A stretch of 64,000 bases of DNA from Prosthecobacter gellanilyticus. GTDB taxonomy: Bacteria; Verrucomicrobiota; Verrucomicrobiia; Verrucomicrobiales; Verrucomicrobiaceae. Shown here piece after piece: positions 54,901 to 64,000 of the stretch (within the stretch, counting starts at the first letter, position 1; each line of letters starts with the position of its first letter). The stretch covers positions 124,001 to 188,000 of the forward strand of contig NZ_BKAG01000004.1 of assembly GCF_007992435.1 (NCBI RefSeq), written 5' to 3'. The position numbers and the translations under genes are program-made. A model generated the notes under the pieces. It did not search any database, was not told the DNA's origin, and saw only the letters and a program-made list of their open reading frames with translations.

Positions 54901-55217
54901 CTGCGGATGCAGAGCGTATCGTGGTGCTGCGCCCGGCCATCCGCTTTTCCGGCACGGTGCGGGATGCGCGGACGGGAGCGTCTGTGCCAGCCTTCAAGGT
55001 GACTCACGGAGACACGAGGCGGTCCAGCCAGAACATCTATTGGCGTGAGGATGAGGCGAGGAGGTTCGCGGACGGCACGTTCAAGTATGAGAACTGGGAC
55101 ATGCGTTGCGAGCACAAGCTGCGCATTGAGGCAGATGGCTACGAGCCTTTTGAATCAGCGCTCTTTTCGCCGAACCAACAGGATGAAAAGCTGGAGGTAT
55201 CCTTGAGTCCGAAGTGA
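51945..55217 (+). CDS. BlaR1-like M56 metallopeptidase with carboxypeptidase-like repeats
   Basis: A 1,090-residue membrane protein. The N-terminal ~350 residues hold four hydrophobic helices and the M56 zinc motif HETAH near residue 229, with EAEHSADEAAL near 266 as the distal metal segment. The remaining two thirds is extracytoplasmic: a ~250-residue region of unknown fold, then several CarboxypepD_reg/Ig-like repeats (GGLVVDEQGKPVSGAAI, ARVVDESGSPLPNVRMVAD) up to the end. There is no penicillin-binding domain, so it is not a beta-lactam sensor as BlaR1 is; the repeats presumably sense another envelope signal. Translationally coupled to the BlaI-type repressor. Confidence 0.87.
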   Translation: MNPVQTFIHSWLLGGMSYPALTFVITAAMKSTALVLLAWAMTRHFLKSKPALMRLWVWRGCIVALASVLLWALAPGMVDAWRPSVTLAPTAQMAQTFQQARSLEILKEKSVGPIPMKPVAPLVAYSSPNAEPRVSLVKMRTPWLARVEQRVVLIWWSIAALVFSIKVVRAICGHYWLCRNTTGALSGTEHRLVGGLVSPVVTGWRKARIWLPVEAAEWPQAKIRAVCLHETAHHERHDGAWQWLGWVTTSVWWWNPFCWLALRRLNAEAEHSADEAALEHEISAPDYAQVLVEIAAGGLSHVPATGVAMLGRSGIHQRVQAILSGAGRSSHFGRKARWVLIISCLCGMLAAGVEVRQAVMQMEKPSEPLTQAEKALVERCLTVLEAQARSLDKIHLKMTQSWTLEGKETVRSPQPSMIEAWVDESAGKSRVEYRPRVARWTNGAAPWYIADMTKASDSKTSWSYDRDEITDADAGRGPREHFFSPWLESRTNELVESLRQLHDGGFKKWGLYTHQIGEASGRVFLERFQELNHRRVRWEIDASGGGLALRREWSTKTPEKLSFEWEVTQWAQMADGTRYPARWNWRHPHIGQIDYEYQITMIEKIPGVADGLLALPQKKPSPYVSTDGKAVHGEWLEARFLHSETGKAVPAVKVHFEINNGKREELISDVQGVLRIPLPKDEVKSLRYWGMKPGFVMQMVSWSRQGDPLKLPDGYETKLYPAGKPIGGLVVDEQGKPVSGAAINITHTGGARNWSVFTDRHSRGEQKVQTDAQGKWSMTGFAKDLKGLSIRVEHPRFKRVSMSYEHATGQTVDALRDGTSRVVLKTSGLEFHAVVSDTKNNKIEGCRVTLSEDRWGRYDEPNAKSDAEGRVILPVHEAGKEWFTFEADGFAPMKMKFDMNAESSKRLVVVRLETGRTLRARVVDESGSPLPNVRMVADRWQDGRTLWFETVTDAEGRFEWRGAPPDEVGWTILGRVDILRDLPLKAADAERIVVLRPAIRFSGTVRDARTGASVPAFKVTHGDTRRSSQNIYWREDEARRFADGTFKYENWDMRCEHKLRIEADGYEPFESALFSPNQQDEKLEVSLSPK

Positions 55218-55227
55218 GGAGATCGTG

Positions 55228-55263
55228 CTTCAATGTCTGTAGCCAGGCGACGAGGTTGGCCAT
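55228..55263 (-). pseudogene. 12-codon remnant of a cytochrome-protein gene 3' end
   Basis: Read on the minus strand, these 36 bases encode MANLVAWLQTLK, nearly the same as the last residues of the neighbouring gene at 55503 (ADLVAWLQTLK). Within the VAWLQTLK codons the differences are synonymous, so the fragment comes from a diverged paralogue that was under selection, not from a fresh copy of its neighbour. It abuts the left end of the inverted-repeat element. Confidence 0.6.
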
Positions 55264-55507
55264 AGTAGCCATCACACTCCGTGTGATGAGCTGGGGAGGA
55301 GGAGCCGACGTGGGTTAGCGAATTAAAGGGGGACGGCTGAGGCTGCGGAGCTTTCTTGGTTTGGCTGATTGGTGCGGGGAGGGTTTTTCGGCGGAGGCGG
55401 GTGATGGGAGGCCATGCGGTTGCGCACGAACATTCTGAAGGGGATGCTCGGAGAGTGGTGGGTGTTGGCTGTGTCGTGAGCTCATCACACGGAGTGTGAT
55501 GGCTACT
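55264..55507. repeat. REPIN/MITE-like element A
   Basis: A 244-bp element bounded by perfect 29-bp inverted repeats (55264-55292, 55479-55507). Each end is a REP-type hairpin: GTAG, one base, then CATCACAC-TCC-GTGTGATG. The interior shares segments with the element at 62933-63523 (GCGGAGCTTTCTT, AGGCCATGCGG type). The right end supplies the final Lys and stop codons of the cytochrome gene at 55503. No coding capacity, and no transposase in the window. Confidence 0.8.
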
Positions 55508-58500
55508 TTAGAGTCTGCAGCCAGGCCACCAGGTCCGCCAGGCCTTGAGGTCCGATGGCAGCAGCGAGTCCGGGTGGCATGAGGGAGTCTTTCATCTCCT
55601 CTTTCTTGGTGATGGCTGACTTCTTGACGGGCATGGTGGCACCGCCATTCACGCGCAGGGTCAGCTCGTCGCCTGTCTCGCTGATCACATAGCCCATCAC
55701 GATCTGGCCTTCCTTGGTGGTGAGGTTCAGTCCGCCGAAGCTGTGTTCCACAGCGGCGCTTGGATAAAGGATAGCGGTGAACAAACCATCTTTGCTGAGC
55801 TTGTTGCCAATCTGCGTGAGATCCGGACCGAAGTTGATGAACTGGCCCTTCACCTGATGACAGGCCACGCAGCCTGCCTGCATGAACATGGCTTGGCCTT
55901 TGGCGGCATCGCCGGTCAGTTTCATGAGATCAGCCAGGGGCGGGAATTTCTCCGCACCGAGTGCCGCAGGCAGCGGCAGGTCCTTGCTCGCTTGATCACG
56001 CAGGCCACCATCCGTGCTGCGGCTGAGCGCGACCGCGGCGGTGGTTTTCACGTTTTCAGGCAGCTTGCCCTCGCCCTGCCAGCGCAGGATGGAACGTCCG
56101 CCTTCACTGCTGAGTGCGAGCGCCTCGATCATGCTACGGCGCACATCATCACGCTTCTCCGGCCAGAAGGCCTGATTCAGCACGGCCACGCTGGGGCGGT
56201 CGCTGACCTTGCCGAGAGCCGCGATGAGCTTCTTCGCCGAGGCCGTGTCTGCCTTCGTCAGGAAAGCCACGGTCCTGCCGACATTCGCCGCGAGCAACTT
56301 GGCCGCCGTGACGGACTCCACCGCATCTGGATGCGCTGTGATGTAGTCCACCAGCTCCTGTTCGAACCCGGTGAGGTTGAGCCGCTGCACCAGATCAATG
56401 AACTCCGGTTTGCCGATGACGGGCTTCAGCAGGGAGTCGAGGCGAGCTTTGGCTTCGGGGTTTGAGGTGATTGTGTTTCGGTCCAGCAAGGCTGTCGCGG
56501 CGAGAGCTGTGTCTGCATCGGCTTTGAGGAAGATGGTCAGAGCGGCTTTGGAGACTTCCTCGCGGTGCTTGAAGGAGAGAAGCTGGAGGGCACGAAGTCC
56601 GTGCACTTTGAGGACATCATTGGCGCCCATCAAACCCACGCTTGTGGCCTGCGCAGGGTGGTGGAGCGCCGCACGCCAGTTCTCCAGGTCGGTGACTTTT
56701 ACATCGGCCGCTTTTTGAAGCGCTGCCCACCGTGATTCAGCGTGGAGATCTTGTGAGATTCCCCAGGCTTCCAAGGCCCAGCGATCATGATCGTTTGTTG
56801 AGCTCGTTAGCCTGTTCCAGAGAGCATTTGCCTGATCTGAGCTGTCAAAGCGGATGGCGAGTGAAAGCTCACGGTTGAGTTCTGGCGCCTGGCTGGAAGG
56901 GGAAACCTTGGAGAGGAATTCGATCAGCTTCTCCGGCTGCTTCTGCTGCCAGAGCTGGCGGGCGGCGCGGATGGCGGTGATGTGGATGTTCGAATCGGGG
57001 TCGGCGAGGGCGGCAGCCAAAGTAGTTTCCAGCTTTAGCTGGTCTGCGGGTGGTTCGGTATTGGGTGCTGCGTTCGGAGAACTTACGCGCTGAAGCGCAT
57101 AAGTACTTTCCAACGCCCAGAGCGCCCTTGCACGATAGTGTGCTGGCAGACGAGTATCGTTGAAGGCCTTCTCCAGGGCAGCGACAGACTGCTTCCCAAA
57201 CTTTTCCAATGCCTTCCATGCGAGGTAACGCTGCTCTTCGTTAGGCGACATCAGGGCACTCACGGCACCTTCAGGAGTCTCCAGCTTGAAGCCAGGAGAC
57301 TGATACTTCTCCGCGGCTTTCGTGGTCACGCGGAAGAGACGGCCACGGGTCACATCACCCATGCCGTGACCGCCGACACCGGGGTCATACCAGTCAGCGA
57401 TGATCAAGGAGCCGTCAGGCGCCACAGCGACGTCGCTGGGACGGAACCAGCGGTTTTTCGTGCCTTCGAGGATGTTCGTGATCTCGGCCTTATAACCAGC
57501 GCCGTCAGGCTGGGTCACATAAGCACGGACGACGTTCGGGCCGGCATCGCAATGGATGGGCTGGCCGAGGAAGATCTTGGGCAGCAGGCCGCCTTCATAG
57601 ATTTGCATGCCGGTGGGAGAGCCTGCGCCGGTGATGAGCACATTGGGGACGACACCGGGATCATTTTGGTGCCAGTGGCGCTGCGGGATTTCGCTCTCGA
57701 TGCCGATGCGCGGGATCTGCCAGCCTTCGCCGGTCATCTCGTCGGAATAACCATAATTGCCGAATTCCATGACGTAGTTGATGCGCACGCCCTTGTTGCC
57801 ATCGTCATCGTTGTCGGACTGCCACATCGTGCCGAAGCTGTCCACGGCAACCTCCCAGTTGTTGCGGAAGTTCCAGGCTAGTACTTCGACATTGCTGCCA
57901 TCCAGCTCACAGCGGAAGACCATGCCTTGCTGATAAGGGCGGTTGTTCTGGTTGGTGCACTTCACACCGTGGATGTCGGTGATGAGGTTGCCAGCCTTGT
58001 CGCAGAGCTGTTTGCCGGCATTGCCAAAATTAAAATACAGACGGCCATCAGGACCGAAATGGAAGGCGTGGATGCCGTGGTCATGCTGCGCGCCGCCGAT
58101 CTTCGTGAACATGAGCTCCTTGCGGTCGGCCTTGTCATCGCCGTTGTCATCGATGAGCCAGAACACGTCATCGCCGCAGGAGATGAGCGCGCGGTTGCCG
58201 AGCACGCAGATGCCGTGAGCGCTGTTCACGTCCGCTCCTTGATGGAAGACGGTGCTCTTGTCAGCCTTGGCATCACCATCAGTGTCTTCGAGGATGAGGA
58301 TGCGATCTCCCTCTTTGCGTTCGCCGTTGTGCTTGCGGTAGTTCACGACTTCGCAAACCCACACGCGACCACGATGATCGATGTCGATGCTCGACGGAGA
58401 GAGCATCATGGGTTCGCTGGCAAAGAGCTGCACGGTGAGTTCGGGATGCACCGTGAGCTGCTCGAGCGAGTCCGCCGCCTCATGCGAGGCGCCACCTTCA

Positions 58501-59786: not shown

Positions 59787-61172
59787 TCAATCTTCTGGCA
59801 GCGGCTTGCCCTTGGTCTCAGGGGCGAAGGGCAGGATCAGGATGCCGACGAGGAAGATGGCGCACATGGTCATGGCGGCGTAGCGCAGAGGCAGCGCAGG
59901 ATCCTGGGCGGCGAACTTGCCATACACATTGGAGGTCAGCGTGGCGGAGAAGAAGCTGCCACCCGCGGCAGCGAAGCGGCCCAGGTTGTAGCAGAAGCTG
60001 GTGCCTGTGCTGCGCAGCTTGCTGGGGAAGAGCTCCGGCAGATAGATGGCGAATCCGGCGAACACGCTGAGCTGCGCGGCACCCATGAGGAACATCATCC
60101 AGCGGGCAGCGACAGGATCACTCATCTTCCAGTAGACCAGGAAGGTGGCGGTGAGAGCCGCCGCAAAGCCGAGGAAGAAGGCGAGACGACGGCCCATCTT
60201 CGCCACGTTGGTGAAGAGAGTCATGCCCACAGCAGCTCCGAGCATGTTGAAGAGATAGGCCACGGAGATGGCGTTGTTCACCTCTCCAGCGATCTTGTCA
60301 GCAGCCACGCCAGCCTTCTCGAAATGCTGCTTGAAGACGACCTTCTGCAGATCCACCGCGTACTCGCCGATGGCCCACAGGCCGACCACGCCCGTGCTGG
60401 CGATGATGGCACCGACAATCAGATTTTTCCGCCAGCGGGCGCTTCCCAGCAGGCTGGCATAGGGAGCGAAGATGCTGCCCTTGGGAAGCTGGTTGGTGTC
60501 CTTGAGATTCTGCCAGGCGGCAGGCTCCTTCAAGTAACCGCGGGTGAAGATGATCATGAGCGCGGGAGCCGCGCCGATGAGGAACATCCAGCGCCAGCCG
60601 GAGCCGGCGACGATGGTGTGATTGGCTTCCAGGGTATCAATGCCCATCTTGGCGAAGCCGGCGGTGATGTTGCCGATCGTGGAGAGGATCTGCAGCAGGC
60701 CGAGGCACTGGGTGCGGGCGCCGTTGGGCACGGTTTCAGCGATCAGGGCCACCGCGAGACCGAACACGCCGCCGACGCCGACGCCTGTCAGGAAGCGGAA
60801 GATGGTGAAGTCCAGACTGGTCTGGCTGAAGTAGCTCAATCCTGTGAAGGCTGAGTAAATCAAGATGGTGAGGGTGAGCATCCGGGCACGGCCAAACTTG
60901 TCTCCCAGAGCGCCAAAGATCAGACCGCCGATGCCCCAACCAATAAGGAAACAAGCGGTGACCACCTTGCCAAAGGCCTGGAGTTCAGGGCTCGTCGGAG
61001 GCTGCTTCATCAGCTCCACAAGAGCGGGCACGCGGGCCAGGGAAAACAGGCGCTGGTCCAGGCAGTCAAAGAACCAAGCCGCAGAGGCCACGATGAGCAC
61101 AAACCAGTGGTAGCCGGTCAGTTGCTTGTACCAGGGAGCGTTCGGGTCGGGGAGAGAGGCGGTTTGGCTCAT
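59787..61172 (-). CDS. MFS transporter
   Basis: A 461-residue protein with about twelve hydrophobic helices and the MFS loop signature GALGDKFGRARML between helices 2 and 3. The sequence GVGVGGVFGLAVALIAE is typical of sugar/acid:H+ symporters. A mid-protein loop (SAEKA-type region with KVVFKQHFEKAGVAADKI) is longer than usual between helices 7 and 8. Substrate unknown. Divergent from the hydrolase gene on its right. Confidence 0.9.
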   Translation of the reverse strand: MSQTASLPDPNAPWYKQLTGYHWFVLIVASAAWFFDCLDQRLFSLARVPALVELMKQPPTSPELQAFGKVVTACFLIGWGIGGLIFGALGDKFGRARMLTLTILIYSAFTGLSYFSQTSLDFTIFRFLTGVGVGGVFGLAVALIAETVPNGARTQCLGLLQILSTIGNITAGFAKMGIDTLEANHTIVAGSGWRWMFLIGAAPALMIIFTRGYLKEPAAWQNLKDTNQLPKGSIFAPYASLLGSARWRKNLIVGAIIASTGVVGLWAIGEYAVDLQKVVFKQHFEKAGVAADKIAGEVNNAISVAYLFNMLGAAVGMTLFTNVAKMGRRLAFFLGFAAALTATFLVYWKMSDPVAARWMMFLMGAAQLSVFAGFAIYLPELFPSKLRSTGTSFCYNLGRFAAAGGSFFSATLTSNVYGKFAAQDPALPLRYAAMTMCAIFLVGILILPFAPETKGKPLPED

Positions 61173-61268
61173 GGGCGCGGAGAGTGGATGCCCTGCCCGC
61201 TTGTGGCAATGACGAATTCAGCCCTCTCTGCTTGTGAGGAAAAGCACGGCCGCTGCGTAATTTCATGC

Positions 61269-62942
61269 ATGAAATTCCCCCGACCCGACGTGCGCTGGCC
61301 CCTGCTTTTCTCCCTTCTTCTGAGCGCCTGGGCGGTCGATGCCGCGTCCCTGCCGCCTCTGGACCTCGGCGGGGTGCGTGAGGAGCACGTGATGATCCCC
61401 ATGCGGGATGGGGTGCACCTCTCCGCCTACCTCTATCTTCCAGCGGGCGAGGGTCAATGGCCGGCGGTGTTTGAGCAGCGCTATGCGAACGTCACCAGCA
61501 CGGGAACGCGCAAGAGTTCCGCCGATCTGGCCCGCCGAGGTTTCGCGGTGGCCATGGTGAACTTCCGCGGTTCCCAGGAGAGCGAGGGCACCTATGTGGG
61601 CTACCGCGCCCTGGCCTGGGGTGAGAAGAAAGACGGCTATGACACCTGTGAGTGGCTGGCCTCGCAGCCCTGGTGCACGGGGAAGGTGGGCACGTTTGGC
61701 AGTTCGCAGGGCGGCTTCGCTCAGAACTTTCTCGCCGTGACGCAGCCACCGCATCTGACCTGCCAGTACATGGTGGACACGGGGCTCAGTCTTTTTCAGG
61801 AAGGCTACCGCATCGGCGGGGTGACGCGGCCGGGCCGTTTTGCCGACTTCGGCGCGAACTGCCGTAATCCGGCGGACAATGACGCGCTGCTGGCCGAGTG
61901 GGACCAGCACCCGAACTATGACGACTACTGGCGTGCGGAGGACTGCACGCTGCACTTCTCGAAGATGAATGTGCCCTGTTTCACCATCGGCAGCTGGTAT
62001 GACTTCATGGTGCAAGGCAGTGTGGGCAGCTTCATCGGCCGGCAGCATCAGGGCGGGCCGAACTCGCGCGGGAAGCAGTGGCTGCTGCTCGGCCCCTGGC
62101 TGCATGGACGGCTGAACAAGGGCAGCAAGGTGGGTGATCTCGTTTATCCCGACAATGTCGTCTGGCCGGAGGTGGACCACATGGTGCGCTGGTTTGATCA
62201 CTGGCTCAAAGGCGCGGACAACGGCATCGAAAAAGAGCCGACGGTGCGCTACTATGTCATGGGTGCCGTGGGTGAAGCCGGTGCTCCTGGGAATGAATAC
62301 CGCAGCGCTGCTGACTGGCCTCCGCAGACCCAGGCGGGCAGCCTTTATCTGCAGGCAGATGGTTTGTTAGGCGAGAAGGCTTCCTCGGCGGAGAAGAGCA
62401 GCACCTCGTATGAGTCTGATCCGGCGCATCCTATGGAGATCGCTGGACGTGCATTTCCTGGCGCGAAGGATGCGAGGGCCTTTGAGACCCAAAAAGAAGT
62501 CCGCACCTGGACCACGGAGCCTCTGACTGAACCCATGGAATGGAACGGCGAGGTCAAAGCGGAAGTCTGGCTCAGCTCCACCGCGCCGGACACGGATGTG
62601 CTCCTGCGTGTGAGTGATGTGTATCCCGATGGTCGCAGCATCCTGGTCATGGACTACCCGATGAGGGCCCGCTATCGCGGGGGCTGGGACAAACAAACTT
62701 TGCTCATGCCAGGTGAGCCTGCACAACTGAGCTGGCACATCGGCTGGACGAGCCTCATCTTTGCCAAAGGCCATCGCATCCGCGTGACCCTCGCCAGCAC
62801 CGGCGCGCCGCTCTATGAGCCCAACACACAGACCGGGGCCGCGCAGACGCGTGACTGGCAGAAGGATGCCCGTGCCGCCACGAACACGATCTGGCATGAT
62901 GCGGCGCATCCTTCGCGGATCATGGTGCCGTTGGTAAAGTAG
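61269..62942 (+). CDS. Secreted CocE/NonD-family (S15) hydrolase
   Basis: The ATG at 61269 gives 557 residues with a signal peptide (WPLLFSLLLSAWAVDA); the longer frame adds 54 residues of no apparent function. The N-terminal ~350 residues are an alpha/beta-hydrolase with MRDGVHLSAYLYLP and nucleophile GSSQGG near residue 145; the C-terminal ~200 form the jelly-roll X-Pro dipeptidyl-peptidase C domain (VWLSSTAPDTDVLLRVSDV). The family includes X-Pro peptidases, glutaryl acylases and CocE esterases. The final Lys and stop (AAGTAG) lie inside the repeat element starting at 62933. Confidence 0.9.
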   Translation: MKFPRPDVRWPLLFSLLLSAWAVDAASLPPLDLGGVREEHVMIPMRDGVHLSAYLYLPAGEGQWPAVFEQRYANVTSTGTRKSSADLARRGFAVAMVNFRGSQESEGTYVGYRALAWGEKKDGYDTCEWLASQPWCTGKVGTFGSSQGGFAQNFLAVTQPPHLTCQYMVDTGLSLFQEGYRIGGVTRPGRFADFGANCRNPADNDALLAEWDQHPNYDDYWRAEDCTLHFSKMNVPCFTIGSWYDFMVQGSVGSFIGRQHQGGPNSRGKQWLLLGPWLHGRLNKGSKVGDLVYPDNVVWPEVDHMVRWFDHWLKGADNGIEKEPTVRYYVMGAVGEAGAPGNEYRSAADWPPQTQAGSLYLQADGLLGEKASSAEKSSTSYESDPAHPMEIAGRAFPGAKDARAFETQKEVRTWTTEPLTEPMEWNGEVKAEVWLSSTAPDTDVLLRVSDVYPDGRSILVMDYPMRARYRGGWDKQTLLMPGEPAQLSWHIGWTSLIFAKGHRIRVTLASTGAPLYEPNTQTGAAQTRDWQKDARAATNTIWHDAAHPSRIMVPLVK

Positions 62943-63122
62943 CCATCACACTCCGTGTGATGAGCTGAGTGGTGTGAAAACACGCTGCATCATCGAACGT
63001 GAAAGGTGTGCTCGAACCAGCGGAGCTTTCTTTGTTTGGCTGGCCTGTGGCAGCTTAGACCTAATGCCGCTAAGCAATAGGAGATGGCAGTCATCTGGTG
63101 CTTTGAGGGCCAAGGGCCCGAG

Positions 63123-63327
63123 ACTCCTCAGCCCAGGCCAACGGCCTGGGATTCAGCACGTTGAGTAATCGCTCATGAACCAGAGCGCCGAAGGTGCGAC
63201 ACTCGACTCTTCGGGTTCATTTGCCGCTGCAATGTCCGGCGTCGAGTGTCGGCCCTACAGGCCTCAGCGTCGGGTCACCGAAGTTGCGTTGGCGCGTTTC
63301 CCAGGCCGTTGGCCTGGGCTGAGGAGT
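63123..63327. repeat. Second-level nested inverted-repeat pair
   Basis: A perfect 28-bp inverted repeat (63123-63150, 63300-63327). Each arm is itself a hairpin (CCCAGGCC-AAC-GGCCTGGG): an 8-bp stem with a 3-nt loop, the same geometry as the outer ends but a different sequence. Spacing is 149 bp. It looks like a second REP family arranged as a REPIN. Confidence 0.72.
63197..63251. repeat. Innermost hairpin of the nested element
   Basis: A perfect 11-bp inverted repeat CGACACTCGAC (63197-63207) and complement (63241-63251), separated by 33 bp, in the centre of the second-level pair. Confidence 0.6.
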
Positions 63328-63513
63328 GCCGCCTCTTCGAGGCTCCAAACTCTTGATTGCTTAGCGGCATTAAGTCTAGATCTTGCGTGGGAGAAAGCTT
63401 TCCGGCGCAGGTGGGTGATGTGAGGCCATGCGCTTTCGCACGAATTTCCGGGGGGATGCGCGGACATCGTTGGTGCTGGCCGTGCGCTCGGTTCATCACA
63501 CGGAGTGTGATGG

Positions 63514-64000
63514 CTACTTTACCCAGTCACGCATGTCGTAGAGCTTGGGATCGCGGATGGGCTGGCGGGCGCTACGGATGAGCTTTTTCACTTGGGCAAA
63601 CACAGGGTCGGTTTCGGGGCTGTTTTCGTCAAAGCTACCGAACTGCTCTTCGAGTTTCTCCGGGTCTTCACCGGACTCGAGACGTCTCACGACCTCGCGG
63701 AGTTCGGGTGGTGTTTTGTCACCCATGACATCCGTGAGCTTGCGCATGAAGCGGCCGAGCTGGCGCGGATCGGGATGATCCGTGTCGAGAGCGCTCATTT
63801 CACTCTCCATTTCATTCATGAGATTTTCCATGCGACCTTCATCGATGCCGGCAAACGGATCATCCTCGCTCTCCTCCCTGGCCTTGCCGATGACCGCGAA
63901 CTGTGAGACGCGCTTCTCCAGTCGAAACGCGGCATTGTCCGGGCACTGCGGCACTTGGTCACGCTCCGCAAAACTGCGGGCCAGGAACTGGTAGAGGGTG
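63514..64000 (-). CDS. C-terminal part of a gene of unknown function
   Basis: On the minus strand the frame is open to the right edge of the window, so the 5' part is missing; about 161 residues are seen. The sequence is polar and highly charged (ESEDDPFAGIDEG, RMENLMNEMESEM), with a middle helix (LGRFMRKLTDVMG) and a conserved-looking end (LYDMRDWVK). No family is recognised. A GTG at 63952-63954 could start a short version, but the frame continues coherently upstream (FLARSFAERDQV), so a longer protein is likelier. Its Lys-stop is supplied by element B. Confidence 0.6.
   Translation of the reverse strand, partial: TLYQFLARSFAERDQVPQCPDNAAFRLEKRVSQFAVIGKAREESEDDPFAGIDEGRMENLMNEMESEMSALDTDHPDPRQLGRFMRKLTDVMGDKTPPELREVVRRLESGEDPEKLEEQFGSFDENSPETDPVFAQVKKLIRSARQPIRDPKLYDMRDWVK

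Follow-up and report, generated by a model that had tools for sequence, protein, structure and literature searches.

How many insertions are recorded by four inverted repeats that lie one inside the other? The question arises at positions 62933 to 63523 of the window, by which we mean the whole stretch of 64,000 nucleotides analysed here (C4:124001-188000, where C4 is one of the 137 contigs of the 7.65-Mb genome of Prosthecobacter gellanilyticus). An earlier note, made from the letters alone, described this stack and proposed that at least two or three families of mobile elements had inserted into each other, elements resembling either REPINs, which are inverted pairs of repetitive extragenic palindromes (REPs), or miniature inverted-repeat transposable elements (MITEs). 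The four pairs record one insertion, not three. Very probably, the stack consists of an outer REPIN of the GTAG type that holds a gene-less miniature of a transposon of TnpA-Y1 subclass 1.2 type, whose ends carry, in two hairpins called H2 and H3 below, the Rfam family Acido-Lenti-1 (RF01687).

Four inverted pairs, two elements

All four pairs are found where they had been read (Table 1), and levels 1 and 3 indeed share the same build, an 8-bp stem with a 3-nucleotide loop. Neither palindrome is due to chance, since the level-1 palindrome has 44 matches in the genome with at most two mismatches and the level-3 palindrome has 29, whereas both reversed patterns have 0. The complete 591 base pairs occur once in the genome. 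The earlier note would have abandoned nesting had they been found only as an indivisible unit; the layers do occur separately, as uninterrupted outer elements and as stand-alone inner copies. The subtraction it proposed also holds: removing the inner 323 base pairs leaves an outer element of 256 bp between GTAG ends, which can be aligned along its whole length with seven copies, 242-267 bp long, that are uninterrupted. Because uninterrupted outer copies exist, the outer element came first and the inner one second. The closest matches of the inner element are 89-91% identical, against 81-83% for the outer halves, a difference that would fit a younger inner insertion but provides no clock.

Positions 120-447 of the 591-bp query, roughly the inner element, recur at 89-91% identity on contigs C27, C42 and C9; stripped of the 23-bp repeats, the core is found elsewhere at 72-89%. 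In each of 13 aligned inner copies, the 28-bp and central pairs lie within the same element; the 23-bp repeat has nine matches in the genome with at most three mismatches, and all nine are on copies of the level 3-4 core. It follows that levels 2 to 4 are one element with compound ends, and that the 23-bp terminal repeats are an extra, present in one of its subfamilies. Of the nesting first proposed there thus remain two families, one inside the other; three successive insertions are rejected, levels 2 to 4 travelling together.

Table 1. Features of the stack and of its surroundings, in window positions (REP, repetitive extragenic palindrome; R1, covariance model described in the text).
Feature	Position	Strand	Description or evidence
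Outer GTAG-type REPIN, interrupted by the inner element	62933..63523	.	37-nt inverted arms and alignment to seven uninterrupted paired copies
Outer pair (level 1)	62933-62969 / 63487-63523		37 nt, 95% complementary, contains perfect 31 bp
Second pair (level 2)	63056-63078 / 63356-63378		23 nt, 96% complementary
Third pair (level 3)	63123-63151 / 63299-63327		29 nt, 100% complementary
Centre pair (level 4)	63197-63207 / 63241-63251		perfect 11-bp core, inside a 25-nt pair, 76% complementary
Inner element, 323 bp, putative gene-less transposon derivative, terminal-repeat subfamily	63056..63378	.	stand-alone copies and 13-copy alignment
Left 23-bp terminal repeat of the inner subfamily	63056..63078	+	9 genome matches (<=3 mismatches)
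Right 23-bp terminal repeat	63356..63378	-	inverted pair with the left one
Left three-hairpin end	63105..63199	-	H3 63107-63119, H2 63132-63150, H1 63185-63197; R1 61.0 bits, E 5.6e-10
Right three-hairpin end	63249..63345	+	H1 63251-63263, H2 63300-63318, H3 63331-63343; R1 62.2 bits, E 3.3e-10
Left outer REP	62939..62962	+	GTAGC, 8-bp stem, 3-nt loop
Right outer REP, inverted	63494..63517	-	same palindrome as left outer REP
TAG of left REP head	62940..62942	+	stop codon of hydrolase-like frame 61107-62942
TAG of right REP head	63514..63516	-	stop codon of convergent open frame
Uninterrupted outer-family REPIN (element A of the earlier note)	55264..55510	.	242 bp between GTAG ends

The transposases

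The search for a Y1/HUH transposase that the earlier note had suggested yields 19 matches to PF01797 in the genome. Six of these proteins, 148-151 amino acids long, have in common the invariant residues D54, H55, H57, W93, Q94, Y113, Q117, H120 and H121, and a DE.YVWD tail; one of the six reads DHAH in place of DH[IV]H. This is the signature that the description of the subclasses by Quentin (2018, PMC6006769) gives for TnpA-Y1 subclass 1.2: DH[IV]H, WQ, Y---Q--HH, a length of about 148 amino acids and a conserved C-terminal domain. We assign the enzyme of the inner family provisionally to this subclass by its motifs. The same proteins fit the profile of solved IS200/IS605-type transposases (2xm3, 2.5e-10; 2a6m, 1.3e-8), and score 52.8 bits against NF033573, slightly under its cut-off of 55. 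We take 2xm3 to be the transposase of ISDra2.

Using these six proteins as queries, we collected loci from other bacteria, and kept the best 80 of 562 confirmed candidates, several of them near-duplicates. By record title they fall into 11 groups: Verrucomicrobia, Planctomycetes, Acidobacteria, Lentisphaerae, Kiritimatiellota, Deltaproteobacteria, Armatimonadetes, Hydrogenedentota, Latescibacteria, Ignavibacteria and Fibrobacter. A second set came from a 198-genome sample of the phylum of an Ignavibacteria record, presumably Bacteroidota, in which 89 genomes have the transposase; its best 30 loci include one, L261, in the genome of L192, so that at most 29 are new.

The ends of the inner element

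Both ends of the inner core match RF01687 over all of its 46 positions, a point missed by the earlier note. The scores, 32.3 bits (63300-63344, E 2.3e-5) and 27.7 bits (63106-63150, E 4e-4), are under the gathering score of 37. Elsewhere in the same genome the family is abundant: at least 54 matches at E 0.001, at least 24 of them above the gathering score, while none is found in 14 control genomes. Genome counts for RF01687, and those for the model R1 introduced below, are lower bounds; for RF01687, 150 of 2069 candidates were scored. Weak Rfam matches to two mir families in the window were taken as chance.

These matches keep close company with transposase genes. In our genome, 4 of the 19 Y1 genes have one within 340 nucleotides, where 0.14 matches would be expected by chance. 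The 80 loci contain 38 gathering-level matches, in 20 loci: 29 of them, across 18 loci, are at most 200 nucleotides from the gene, a zone that makes up 7.7% of the non-gene bases (binomial 4e-25), and 26 of these 29 point outward. In the second set, RF01687 is again present in 20 of the 30 loci, with 13 matches above the gathering score, and locus L278 is bracketed on both sides.

The Rfam model covers part of a larger structure. Going outward from the gene, an end is composed of three hairpins, H1 (about 5 bp), H2 (8 bp) and H3 (about 5 bp); the gaps between H1 and H2 peak at 22-24 nucleotides, those between H2 and H3 at 12, which is also the gap at either end of the inner element of the window. 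When scanned for explicitly, the array turns up in 74 of the 158 gene flanks; the rate is 1.3% in shuffles and 1.8% in distant windows, of which there were 2313. Over 54 ends, changes on both sides are seen at 14 of 18 base pairs, with 168 cells against 55 in shuffles and a covariation score of 0.47 against 0.17; since these ends were selected by a hairpin criterion, their paired fraction is partly obtained by construction.

From these 54 ends, all from other bacteria and none from our genome, we built a covariance model, R1. Applied to the 64-kb window (E at most 0.05), it returns two matches only, the two ends of the inner element, placed back to back. Applied to the 80 loci, with a limit of E 0.01 and adjacency meaning at most 150 nucleotides, it returns 239 matches across 76 loci: 120 of the 141 matches adjacent to the gene point outward, 71 loci have an adjacent outward end, and 47 have one on both sides. 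These loci also contain 36 back-to-back pairs without a gene, 177-287 bp long, which have the same architecture as the inner element of the window. In loci L214 (3627-5147) and L193 (1683-2732), several such pairs are arrayed beside a single transposase gene. In the second set, at the same E limit and a distance of 200 nucleotides, 18 of the 30 loci have an outward end and 10 have one on both sides. Among more distant relatives, L272 and L277 have two short hairpins per side instead of three, judging their flanks by eye.

The two ends of a locus resemble each other more than they resemble those of other loci. Comparing the reverse complement of the upstream flank with the downstream flank gives a median score of 59 within a locus and 20 between loci, and a score of at least 34 in 54 of 75 loci against 11.7% of cross pairs; left and right H2 arms are the same in 17 of the 22 loci compared, a proportion that is 18% among 1034 cross pairs. 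Distances between proteins and between H2 sequences are correlated (Mantel r 0.29, 0 of 2000 permutations). Shared ancestry contributes to both the H2 match and this correlation.

The gene and the ends also tend to be found in the same genomes. Among 59 genomes of the phylum of the window, five have the transposase (E 1e-20), four have R1 matches (E 1e-4) and three have both (Fisher p 0.0012, a test that includes our own genome, the source of the protein profile); these three have 11, 6 and 1 genes with, respectively, at least 72, 43 and 5 ends. Eight genomes of named loci have at least 2-43 R1 matches each (E 1e-6). Within our genome, 7 of the 11 loci with subclass-1.2-like genes have an R1 match, and none of the eight loci of the other Y1 type (L100-L107) has one.

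The outer element and a RAYT-like gene

Going inward, an outer end presents first GTAGC, then a stem of 8 bp closed by a TCC loop, and last AGCTGA (or a variant), so that a GTAG head stands at the 5' foot of a short hairpin at both ends. There are 44 REP matches in the genome and eight inverted pairs, six on C4 (the present one included), one on C3 and one on C40; the seven others are uninterrupted. An open frame at C4:195775-196443, about 8 kb beyond the stack, lies between two of these pairs, one ending near 195700 and the other starting at 196505. It resembles a REP-associated tyrosine transposase (RAYT), with 23.3 bits for PF01797 (cut-off 23) and 60.4 bits, under the cut-off of 80, for NF047646, the REP-transposase family of NCBIfam.

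Six of the eight outer pairs are at most 31 kb from this gene (binomial 7e-12), and leaving out the two pairs that bracket it, four of six still are (6e-8). This clustering suggests local spread. Taken together, the features of the outer layer are those of an ordinary GTAG REPIN whose spread is unusually local, and it was probably moved by this putative class-2 RAYT.

Some further observations concern this family. The clustered pairs span C4:179265-226729 (loci L061-L064). A large alignment of solo outer REPs revealed a second arrangement and no clean element. About a dozen solo REPs have a different common inner flank, in which GGATC-type repeats are abundant, and their upstream flank is often CGCGCCAGCAAAGTAGC (L001, L016, L020, L021, L023, L029, L030, L065, L072, L074 and L075). 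On either side of the intact outer element, at 55216-55540 of the window, there are similar gene-end sequences (coding LVAWLQTL(K)), possibly a duplicated gene end.

Stop codons at the insertion locus

Both outer ends of the stack provide the stop codon of the adjoining open frame, which the earlier note had not reported. The hydrolase-like gene on the left is matched in 19 of 20 genomes of the genus, our own counted, and its orthologues in relatives have other stops, at the same place or within a few codons. More generally, among outer-type REPs that follow an open frame of at least 190 codons, seven of eight are in the frame of the TAG codon, one of them reading TAA (loci L001-L080, p 0.0026): the TAG of the GTAG head frequently terminates a gene. 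In another species of the genus (genome G010, locus L239, near 3132), a GTAG repeat, though one whose stem has another sequence, likewise closes the hydrolase orthologue, as if this gene had been hit independently.

Comparison with known systems

Elements of the IS200/IS605 family have a homologous HUH-Y1 enzyme and hairpin ends, like the transposases and ends described here. Their ends are not known to be inverted repeats, whereas in the present family the two ends are inverted copies, each with three hairpins, and pairs without a gene occur often: the non-inverted hairpins of IS200/IS605 are not what we find.

The system described as REPtron, a GTAG REP or REPIN with its RAYT (Di Nocera 2013, PMC3733652), shares with our outer layer the GTAG head, the short perfect hairpin, the inverted pair and a RAYT-like gene, which here lies between two pairs. 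The same paper, in its account of these repeats, reports them in the verrucomicrobium O. terrae. Unlike the GTAG REPIN as described, the outer pairs here measure 242-267 bp, and six of eight lie within about 31 kb of the RAYT.

For the inner element, the likeness to subclass 1.2 extends from the motifs to the shared C-terminal tail. However, where Quentin (2018, PMC6006769) tabulates the subclass, the entry for REP is 'no' and the one for terminal IS200 structures is 'generally without', and the members are mostly in Cyanobacteria and Bacteroidetes; the genes that we describe are accompanied by inverted ends of three hairpins, and their records belong, by title, to 11 groups. Class 3 of the same paper (Solibacter and others) is presented there with atypical hairpins near the gene, in high copy, in Planctomycetes and Acidobacteria, much like the present ends, but with a Q at +5 of the Y motif and NHVH, where our proteins have a Q at +4, DHVH and HH. 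A comparable layout is that of the TIRYTs and TIRtrons of Di Nocera (2013, PMC3733652), depicted as Y1 genes between long inverted repeats, some double-palindromic and some acidobacterial. Given this precedent, a Y1 gene with inverted ends is nothing new as such. The passages on TIRYTs make no link to RF01687; most TIRYTs were later assigned to subclass 2.1.

As for RF01687 itself, it spans H2 and H3, is filed as a small RNA (sRNA), and omits H1, the inverted partner and the transposase. The family is reported to be linked to group II introns. It figures as a probable RNA in a table of Weinberg (2010, PMC2864571), and the paragraph that a 2026 paper devotes to Acido-Lenti-1 calls it little known, situates it near Tannerella protease genes and proposes that it regulates them. 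A full-text search of one open-access library found no paper that links RF01687 to a Y1 transposase.

Weighing the alternatives

The concentric levels might suggest that the 591-bp stack is a single palindrome which arose or spread as such, neither family having entered the other. This is contradicted by the stand-alone copies of each layer and by the single occurrence of the whole, and we give it next to no credence. The 23-bp terminal repeats invite a different conjecture, namely that the inner element is a MITE of the DDE type, moved by these repeats, and that the old hairpin core is merely carried. The repeats form a genuine terminal pair, 96% complementary, and they bound several copies of about 90% identity at different sites, so that the 323-bp unit, and not the bare core, has spread recently. 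However, the repeat is found on core copies and nowhere else, no full-length transposon is seen among its nine matches, and more diverged copies that lack it occupy other sites. Such a MITE is conceivable, but we consider it unlikely. Judged by eye, the flanks of inner copies show no clear target-site duplication.

There is also the possibility that Acido-Lenti-1 is a genuine structured RNA carried by a transposon, as a terminator or a translation control of the transposase for example, and that covariation stems from its function as an RNA. Submission to Rfam as a probable RNA (PMC2864571), covariation in all three helices, and the hairpins that do lie downstream of genes are all in keeping with this. 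It sits badly with the inverted arrays on both sides of the gene in 47 of 80 loci, with 36 back-to-back pairs that have no gene, and with left ends that match the right ends of their own locus; moreover, an upstream copy that faces away from the gene would be present in the transposase mRNA as its complement. We find a structured RNA improbable. To judge from the architecture of these ends, Acido-Lenti-1 is most likely the end of a transposon, of which the inner element would be a derivative without the gene. If RF01687 corresponds to H2 and H3 of such ends, its covariation would reflect the recognition of hairpins in single-stranded DNA rather than an sRNA.

Several observations weigh against this reading. 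Outward ends are missing, at E 0.01, beside the gene in 9 of the 80 loci and in 12 of the 30 further ones. In our own genome, the subclass-1.2-like loci L090, L093, L094 and L097 have no R1 match within 1.5 kb (E 0.05); L093, L094 and L097 are three near-alike genes, with the motif YIKGQEQHH or close to it, which may use other ends. The genes of contigs C14 and C25 have inward-facing ends nearest to them, as though each were bracketed by complete miniature elements. Two of the five transposase genomes of the phylum have no R1 match, and one of the 54 without transposase has three weak ones. The 23-bp repeats lie outside the hairpins, unexplained by the three-hairpin model. Finally, no strict empty site was found: in the loci of 15 relatives that were compared, the orthologous gene lacks the convergent neighbour downstream, so that no filled and empty pair could be set side by side for the outer insertion. 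The 591-bp query itself has only short or weak matches in eight other genomes (9 of 28 with our own).

A proposed mechanism

The history of the locus would be as follows. An outer GTAG REPIN landed, we suppose, at the stop codon of the hydrolase-like gene, and a second element would later have inserted in its variable middle. The full form of that second element would be an end, tnpA and another end, each end an outward array with H1 nearest the gene, followed by H2 and H3; the miniature would be the two ends back to back, without the gene. The hairpins could fold while the strand is single, during replication or repair. By analogy with IS200/IS605 and TnpA-REP, the HUH tyrosine enzyme would bind them, then cut and rejoin that specific strand; ends would be copied or moved pairwise, and pairs that have no gene would be served by an enzyme acting in trans. 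Mobility itself is inferred from sequence comparison, as are the timing of the steps and the matching of enzymes to copies.

Implications

We think it probable that Acido-Lenti-1 belongs to the ends of single-strand DNA transposons that make up a hitherto unrecognised family, spread over many bacterial phyla, with an enzyme of subclass 1.2, inverted ends made of three co-evolving hairpins, and gene-less, REPIN-like populations that insert into the REPINs of other families. This would join an Rfam family without a function to a transposase subclass that is listed without terminal structures, and could be examined with cheap bench tests, as one small enzyme and one short single-stranded substrate would suffice. 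If Acido-Lenti-1 is the end of a mobile element, the regulation proposed for the Tannerella protease genes changes as well. There is a more general warning here: DNA hairpins recognised by transposases covary like structured RNAs and, if the above is true, other structured-RNA motifs known from covariation alone may share this origin. As for the nested stack, it shows in which order two mobile populations arrived at a single locus.

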